34,120 nt of DNA from Candidatus Microgenomates bacterium (lineage in GTDB: Bacteria; Patescibacteriota; Microgenomatia; Daviesbacterales; UBA10151): the NCBI GenBank assembly GCA_016182045.1, contig JACOYE010000007.1, positions 1 to 34,120 of the forward strand, read 5' to 3'. The notes below the pieces were generated by a model that worked only from the letters and a program-made list of their open reading frames with translations, was not told the origin of the DNA and made no database searches. Positions 4,694-5,278 of this stretch are shown here, piece by piece. The position numbers were made by a program, and so were the translations under genes. Within the stretch, counting starts at the first letter, position 1; the number at the start of each line of letters is the position of its first letter.

Positions 4694-5278
4694 TCAAGGA
4701 TTAGTTTTCTCGATAACTTCATACAACACTATCCCTAAAGATACCATTACATTTAATGATTTATTTACTCCAAACATGGGCAGTTCCACAATTGCATCTG
4801 CCATTTCCAGCACTTCTTTAGATACCCCATCTGTTTCATGACCCACCACCAAACATATAGGCATTTTGTACTCAAATTTATCATATTGGATTGATTCAGC
4901 AGTCTGTTCTATAGCCACAATCTGTACCGAGCTGACACCTCCGAGGTGTCGCTTATGGTTTCGTCTAGATCTCACCTCGGAGGTGAGCTTACAAATTGCC
5001 TCTACCGCTGTCTCGCAATACTGCCACTCCACCCATTCAGTGGTATTAATGGAGGCCTTTTTTATCCTGGGGTTTGGCGGTGTTTCTGTCCCTCCGCAAA
5101 GATAGATCTTTTTGGCTGCTACCGCATCAGCCAAGCGGAATATAGAGCCAATATTATATGTGTCCAACACATGATCCAAAACAATATATATTTCATTGCG
5201 TTTAACTGTACCCTGTACCCTGTACCCTGTACCCTGTCTTAGCTGCTTGGCATTTAAAACAAGGAGTCTCTTATTCAT
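4694..5278 (-). CDS. TrmH/SpoU-family RNA 2'-O-ribose methyltransferase
   Basis: LDHVLDTYNIGSIFRLADA, ICLVVGHETDGVSKEVLEMADAIVELPMFGVNKSLNVMVSLGIVLYE motifs 1-3 of SPOUT methyltransferases. Confidence 0.9.
   Translation of the reverse strand: MNKRLLVLNAKQLRQGTGYRVQGTVKRNEIYIVLDHVLDTYNIGSIFRLADAVAAKKIYLCGGTETPPNPRIKKASINTTEWVEWQYCETAVEAICKLTSEVRSRRNHKRHLGGVSSVQIVAIEQTAESIQYDKFEYKMPICLVVGHETDGVSKEVLEMADAIVELPMFGVNKSLNVMVSLGIVLYEVIEKTNP
4936..4985. repeat. Paired palindromic element CACCTCCGAGGTG ... CACCTCGGAGGTG inside the TrmH CDS (copy 1)
   Basis: Units at 4936-4948 and 4973-4985; each self-complementary and mutually reverse-complementary; second copy at 22977-23025. Confidence 0.9.
5206..5237. 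repeat. (CTGTACC)4.5 tandem repeat in the 5' end of the TrmH CDS
   Basis: ctgtaccctgtaccctgtaccctgtaccctgt. Confidence 0.95.

Follow-up and report, generated by a model that had tools for sequence, protein, structure and literature searches.

Why two unrelated genes on opposite strands should carry the same pair of short palindromes is the question raised by a 34,120-nucleotide stretch of DNA from a Candidatus Microgenomates bacterium (contig JACOYE010000007.1, positions 1 to 34,120; hereafter, the window). The original prediction, made from the letters of the window, described two 13-nt palindromes inside the gene of a TrmH methyltransferase and the same architecture at 22977-23025, and proposed a mobile or convergently maintained element. 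Our analysis suggests that the two palindromes together form a miniature mobile element, non-autonomous and of the kind known as REPINs, i.e., doublets of repetitive extragenic palindromes (REPs), and that it is moved by a REP-associated tyrosine transposase (RAYT); we give this reading a probability of roughly 0.6. On the level of sequence comparison, the analysis establishes a dispersed family that is absent from most orthologues, evidently translated in place and repeatedly settled in the same permissive loops.

The palindrome pair and its relatives

A scan of the window for exact matches located both palindromes of the TrmH gene, CACCTCCGAGGTG at 4936-4948 and CACCTCGGAGGTG at 4973-4985, exactly where they had been described, and found identical 13-mers in the second gene. 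The features are as follows.

4694..5278, minus strand: TrmH/SpoU family SPOUT RNA 2'-O-methyltransferase, 194 residues (PF00588, 4.6e-30), insert from residue 98
4972..4986, minus strand: TrmH element, palindrome 1, TCACCTCCGAGGTGA, core 13-mer 4973-4985, exact match; encodes (L)TSEV(R), phase 2
4950..4971, minus strand: TrmH element, linker; 24 nt (4949-4972) with one flank base per palindrome included, 23/24-nt class
4935..4949, minus strand: TrmH element, palindrome 2, ACACCTCGGAGGTGT, core 13-mer 4936-4948, exact match; encodes HLGGV, phase 0
22300..23808, plus strand: NUDIX-diphosphomevalonate decarboxylase fusion, 502 residues (PF00293, PF22700, PF18376, TIGR01240), insert near residues 226-242
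22976..22990, plus strand: decarboxylase element, palindrome 1, TCACCTCCGAGGTGA, core 22977-22989, exact match; encodes TSEV, phase 2
22991..23011, plus strand: decarboxylase element, linker; 23 nt (22990-23012) counting flank bases, 23-nt class
23012..23026, plus strand: decarboxylase element, palindrome 2, ACACCTCGGAGGTGT, core 23013-23025, exact match; encodes TSEV, phase 2

The elements measure 49-50 nt and, relative to the coding strand, both have the common orientation TCACCTCCGAGGTGA - linker - ACACCTCGGAGGTGT. When up to two mismatches were allowed, the window held five matches against 0.65 expected, four of the five being exact. The genome (24 contigs totalling 905 kb, with an assembly completeness of 92%) contains 12 exact copies of the 13-mer, where a reversed-pattern control gave none, four further copies with one mismatch and 13 copies of the 11-nt core. 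In the 720 kb covered by tile-wise scans, the 13-mer is the most frequent 13-nt palindrome with 6-bp arms. The 12 exact copies group into six doublets (one of them with a one-mismatch partner) and a single singlet, i.e., doublets outnumber singlets, and five of the six doublets are intragenic.

Copies are present in relatives, too. One scan of 85,488 species genomes returned 109 stretches with a pair, found mainly in Daviesbacteria, Curtissbacteria and other Microgenomates and also in WWE3 and Omnitrophota; the few matches in other phyla resemble tandem or protein repeats that fit by accident. The exact 13-mer occurs in 26 of the 389 genomes of a phylum sample and the pair in 19 of the 289 genomes of a class sample. 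The statistics given below refer to 126 distinct pairs, chiefly from Microgenomates-group Patescibacteria, collected as exact matches with spacers within a limited range.

The palindrome at each end of the element is constant, and the linkers fall into length classes, of which 23, 11, 14 and 17 nt are the commonest; the 11-, 14- and 23-nt classes have a recurrent sequence once the pairs are oriented. The central bases of the two palindromes are arranged as C..G in 97 pairs and as G..C in 14, which makes 88% of the 126 pairs inverted. C..G pairs also reveal a direction of the element, in that T..A flanks tend to accompany one palindrome and A..T flanks the other.

For the fold, a four-arm structure and a long hairpin had both been proposed. 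Energy minimisation does yield the long hairpin for both copies in the window (RNA z of about -3.7 and -4.0), but the base pattern across the family favours two small hairpins instead. Inward extension, which would lengthen a long hairpin, is possible in only 4 of the 97 C..G pairs, whereas the flanking bases would lengthen the individual palindromes in 54 and 50 of the 97, respectively. Because the former is rare and the latter is found in about half of these pairs, two separate small hairpins appear to be the better-supported recognised unit, both folds being physically possible. Linker halves pair below shuffles in all length classes, and an element built as a long hairpin with paired linker halves was rejected on these linker statistics. 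A search of the 720 kb of genome tiles for GGATCACCTCC, which concerned the idea that CACCTCC duplicates the 3' end of the 16S rRNA, gave no match.

Target-site duplication, which the original prediction had suggested looking for, was not found at the exact element edges in 123 pairs: direct repeats with k = 3, 4 and 5 occur in 3, 1 and 2 pairs (1.9, 0.8 and 0.3 expected), and those with k = 6 and 8 in none. Such edge repeats are too few for a rule, and in this respect the element does not resemble a classical DDE-type miniature inverted-repeat transposable element. The single-strand mechanism of Y1/HuH transposases (IS200/IS605) is not expected to leave a target duplication.

Translation of the insert and its host loops

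The element hardly avoids genes: 99 of the 126 pairs (79%) lie inside open reading frames (ORFs) of at least 100 residues, compared with 85% of random positions. No reading frame of the palindrome contains a stop codon; translation gives HLRG or HLGG in phase 0, TSEV in phase 2 and either Pro-Pro-Arg or Pro-Arg-Arg in phase 1. Pairs are distributed 48:3:48 over phases 0, 1 and 2, and it follows that the Pro-Arg frame is avoided and that the element is translated; the corresponding ratio is 111:8:91 (p=3e-19) when single palindromes located in ORFs of at least 150 residues are counted. The linker length is 2 mod 3 in 94 of the 126 pairs and, therefore, both palindromes stay in one frame. The biases in phase and linker length need translation and selection on the protein.

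As predicted for TrmH, the gene encodes the insert peptide TSEVRSRRNHKRHLGGV; the gene of the decarboxylase fusion encodes TSEVSSSSNPAYTSEV, and TSEVKKMQLHLGGVKPLQV is an example of a predicted insert-derived peptide. The AlphaFold model of TrmH (mean pLDDT 73, pTM 0.75) matches solved TrmH structures and places the insert where helix 91-107 ends and in the loop ahead of strand 119-123, a region of low confidence. The solved decarboxylase homologue 6n0z is without the insert. Both host loops are mostly empty among orthologues in family genomes. The TrmH loop has 18 residues when empty, 31 in the window copy and 28 in another genome (G014), where it contains TSEVKKMQLHLGGV; in a third (G029) there is one palindrome only and the net gain in length is zero. 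In the decarboxylase loop, TSEV inserts with differing linkers are present in three genomes (G000, G026 and G019) and absent from the remaining orthologues examined. Inserts of several kinds with TSEV, HLGG or HLRG were found in 31 of 120 TrmH proteins; among the 112 classifiable TrmH homologues the loop is empty in 70, which rules out a conserved SPOUT peptide, and 11 have unrelated inserts. Thus, neither half of the outcome that the original prediction had named as contrary to it, namely no further copies in the genome and a peptide conserved across TrmH homologues, was observed.

When host proteins were grouped by homology, 16 sites proved to have been hit in at least two loci; a further group, the 17th (L099), consists of an internal array. 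In a TopA-like protein, the copies at both sites differ in linker class and codon phase (11-nt, phase 2 versus 23-nt, phase 0), and changed linkers or phases are also seen at a TsaD-like site, in the protein of L054 and L110 and elsewhere (TopA, TsaD and UvrD are names that we presume from our own reading of the sequences). A phase change is impossible by point substitution within a fixed insert, which makes independent insertion events at the same permissive loops the best reading of these cases. Together with the further copies and the non-conserved peptide, the varying linkers and phases at the same loops lend support to the notion of a mobile or convergently maintained element. On a tree built from the TrmH homologues, 20 changes between presence and absence of the palindrome are counted, of which well-supported branches force only 1-2; the tree is too weak to count independent gains and was not used as proof.

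Other repeats were observed in the same loops and in their neighbourhood. The TrmH loop of homologues P0020-P0112 holds additional peptides resembling coding repeats (SLPAGKAG, CHPEESSTKDLKIKSRDSSQARND, HPELVSGS..IPKQVRN and SLDFARDK), and in many orthologues (L174, L179, L185, L189, L190, L193 and L196) the pair-bearing loop is period-7 repetitive DNA with a lag-7 identity of 0.61 to 1.0. In the genome of the window, another gene (L335, 15579-15624) contains HLEGVSLDFARDKKAHLRGG, perhaps one repeat nested in another. Tandem arrays of period 7 are in strong excess in the 720 kb: 58 were counted, plus 31 with period 14, whereas periods 6 and 8 are represented by 7 and 4 arrays, respectively. 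The 58 arrays have 39 different unit sequences and 38 of them lie in ORFs of at least 100 residues (tiles L321-L360); the excess is also seen in 109 related loci (L043-L151), with 82 arrays. Period-7 arrays of the window are at 5206-5237 (in the TrmH gene), 25578-25610, 27185-27243 and 33013-33043. The window also contains a tandem repeat at 11147-11929 (unit about 144-150 nt, five copies) inside a large ORF, 9869-12937, and a mevalonate-type gene cluster at 20346-23808, where two GHMP kinases precede the NUDIX-diphosphomevalonate decarboxylase fusion.

A candidate mobiliser and the rival explanations

Y1 transposases (PF01797) are encoded in 41 of 45 family genomes, and a typical example matches the NCBIfam model of REP-associated tyrosine transposases, below its cut-off. 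Many of these RAYT genes lie between copies of a near-perfect palindrome that is specific to the gene in question (CACCCTTGGGGTG, CACACCAGGTGTG and others). The core CCTCSGAGG is present in a flank of 15 of 79 distinct RAYTs, a proportion somewhat inflated by a sample that was partly palindrome-guided (L241, L085, L088, L108 and L363); it is found on both sides in 12, compared with none of 225 control ORFs (p=5e-8). Whole pairs are located on either side of a WWE3 RAYT, and an Omnitrophota RAYT adjoins a pair. The palindrome type clusters on the RAYT tree, with 7 changes against 13.9 for shuffled labels (0 of 500 shuffles as low). Across 34 family genomes, compared on the basis of the RAYTs that the search found in them, a CACCTC-type RAYT is present in eight, one in each, and at least three further copies of the palindrome are found in all eight, versus 14 of the 26 others (p=0.013). 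These sequence associations point to a RAYT, a Y1 HuH enzyme, as the likely mobiliser; the link between RAYT and palindrome is real but incomplete. At RAYT loci L241-L320, a TTGACA box is often located just downstream of the upstream palindrome copy, which may double as an operator.

In the mechanism that we propose, each palindrome would be recognised by the RAYT as a small single-stranded hairpin and cut alongside. Excision or copying of the stretch with both hairpins, mostly 37-50 nt, would be followed by its joining to a new site, where no target duplication would arise. Insertion into a gene would often be survivable because the palindrome is stop-free in all frames and most linkers keep the period a multiple of 3. 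Selection would then remove copies that break the protein or fall into the Pro-Arg frame, and what remains would be loops with TSEV..TSEV or HLRG..HLGG peptides. The copies in the genome of the window would probably derive from a cognate RAYT that is now lost or unassembled, or that was active in a relative before gene exchange.

Several observations weigh against the reading of the pair as a RAYT-moved REP doublet, in addition to the partly guided RAYT sample. None of the three RAYTs in the 92% complete assembly of the window's genome is flanked by this palindrome; two genomes with many copies, G022 (28) and G025 (18), have no cognate RAYT, and a third, G010, has six copies and no RAYT match whatsoever. 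The tags of known REPs are not enriched: GTAG is found 5' of the hairpin in 5 of 308 contexts (5.5 expected) and CGTC at one end in 4 of 308 (9.2 expected). The spacer halves are unpaired, which also differs from REPINs. In both host genes the net insertion is shorter than the element, and the element ends given here are therefore provisional. We saw neither a site polymorphic within a species nor an excision product and, since a cognate RAYT is missing from the genome of the window, movement there is what we infer.

A rival explanation is a palindromic insert similar to the Rickettsia palindromic elements (RPEs) that spreads without a RAYT, by recombination, gene conversion between copies or template switching during replication, with the RAYT link being a side effect of RAYTs sitting between many kinds of palindromes. 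Copies are plentiful in genomes without a cognate RAYT, that of the window included, and CGTC-tagged REPs, the Rickettsia RPEs among them, are also said to have no dedicated transposase (PMC3733652). However, the bracketing is specific, exactly one core-bearing RAYT is found in each of the eight family genomes that have it (of 34), the palindrome label follows the RAYT tree and whole pairs flank the WWE3 RAYT, all of which makes this explanation unlikely, if still worth serious attention.

The near-perfection of the 13-mers (12 exact and four with one mismatch) alongside variable linkers, as well as the regular spacing of doublets, is what would be seen if the palindrome were a DNA-binding site (an operator, a partition or nucleoid site, or a DNA-uptake sequence) kept by selection and not mobile. 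Perfect arms also fit recent spread, though, positions are not conserved among relatives and most copies lie deep within unrelated ORFs, and we consider such a site improbable. Known DNA-uptake sequences occur roughly once per kb; about 12 copies per genome is far under this density, and an uptake sequence was rejected on copy number. It is very improbable that the pair is an RNA-level device, a long hairpin in mRNA that affects translation or stability: the predicted hairpin is strong, but the pairing statistics of the linkers and the avoided inward extension speak against it, and placement tracks protein loops and codon phase, not mRNA position. There is next to no likelihood that the pair is ordinary TSEV-rich repetitive protein sequence that is palindromic by chance. 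This would suit a few distant matches, such as a Gemmatimonadetes contig (L082) with long TSEAKN repeats, but intergenic copies exist and, in the Patescibacteria, the same DNA gives two peptides (TSEV and HLRG/HLGG) in two frames, which refutes the protein-repeat reading for these copies.

Relation to known elements and significance

Palindrome-ended miniature elements derived from IS200/IS605 have distinct left and right hairpins at their ends, depend on the Y1 transposase family and are not expected to produce target duplications. The present element is similar to them in its transposase family, in its hairpin ends and in the target duplication not being expected; it differs in that its ends are near-identical palindromes, the linked transposase is of RAYT type and the length is only 35-60 nt. 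REPINs, inverted REP doublets that form hairpins, have been described from extragenic regions, and RAYTs are believed to mobilise them (Bertels and Rainey 2011, PMC3116915). The family described here shares with them the inverted near-identical palindromes with a variable spacer, cognate RAYT genes flanked by the same palindrome and, in the genome of the window, the prevalence of doublets over singlets; unlike them, it is mostly located in ORFs, has no GTAG tag and counts few copies (about 12) per genome. Among REPtrons (TnpA-REP with its REPs) of groups 2 and 3 (PMC8266576), the REPs of group 3 are short perfect palindromes with a tiny loop beside the transposase gene, like TCACCTCCGAGGTGA. 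In vitro, RAYT cleaves next to the hairpin at a CT dinucleotide, probably guided by GTAG (PMC8266576); this guide is absent from the present family, in which RAYT cutting is only predicted.

REPs and REP dimers with an intragenic location, Rickettsia RPE-4 and RPE-6 among them, are known from GTAG- and CGTC-tagged families (PMC3733652), where they are in-frame palindromes or dimers that encode short peptides, often in genes related to DNA repair or RNA. The present insert resembles these RPEs and CGTC-tagged REPs in being translated in-frame in unrelated genes, as indicated by phase bias and empty orthologues. It has neither tag and belongs to another sequence family, and the hosts named in the consulted passages of PMC3733652 include neither Patescibacteria nor Omnitrophota. 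Thus, intragenic REP dimers as such are not new; what sets the present family apart is that it has neither tag, is mainly intragenic and occurs in Patescibacteria. In the open-access literature, we found no description of this repeat or of a RAYT-linked palindrome family in Patescibacteria, and a search there for the 11-mer core string returned seven papers, whose titles look unrelated (human gene expression, mammal identification and immunoassay). The best label appears to be a REPIN-like family without a GTAG or CGTC tag that is mostly intragenic.

More tentatively, the Patescibacteria might possess a tag-less RAYT/REP-doublet system that acts mainly inside ORFs of compact, gene-dense genomes as natural in-frame peptide insertion, in which about 10-20 residues (TSEV..TSEV or HLRG..HLGG) would be repeatedly added to the same permissive loops of core enzymes and each RAYT lineage would have its own palindrome. 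If our reading is true, very small gene-dense genomes hold a source of small in-frame insertions, and the study of REP spread, an open question in the field, would gain many natural sites, both filled and empty. The family marks insertion-tolerant loops in conserved proteins and is also a warning for annotation and structure prediction.
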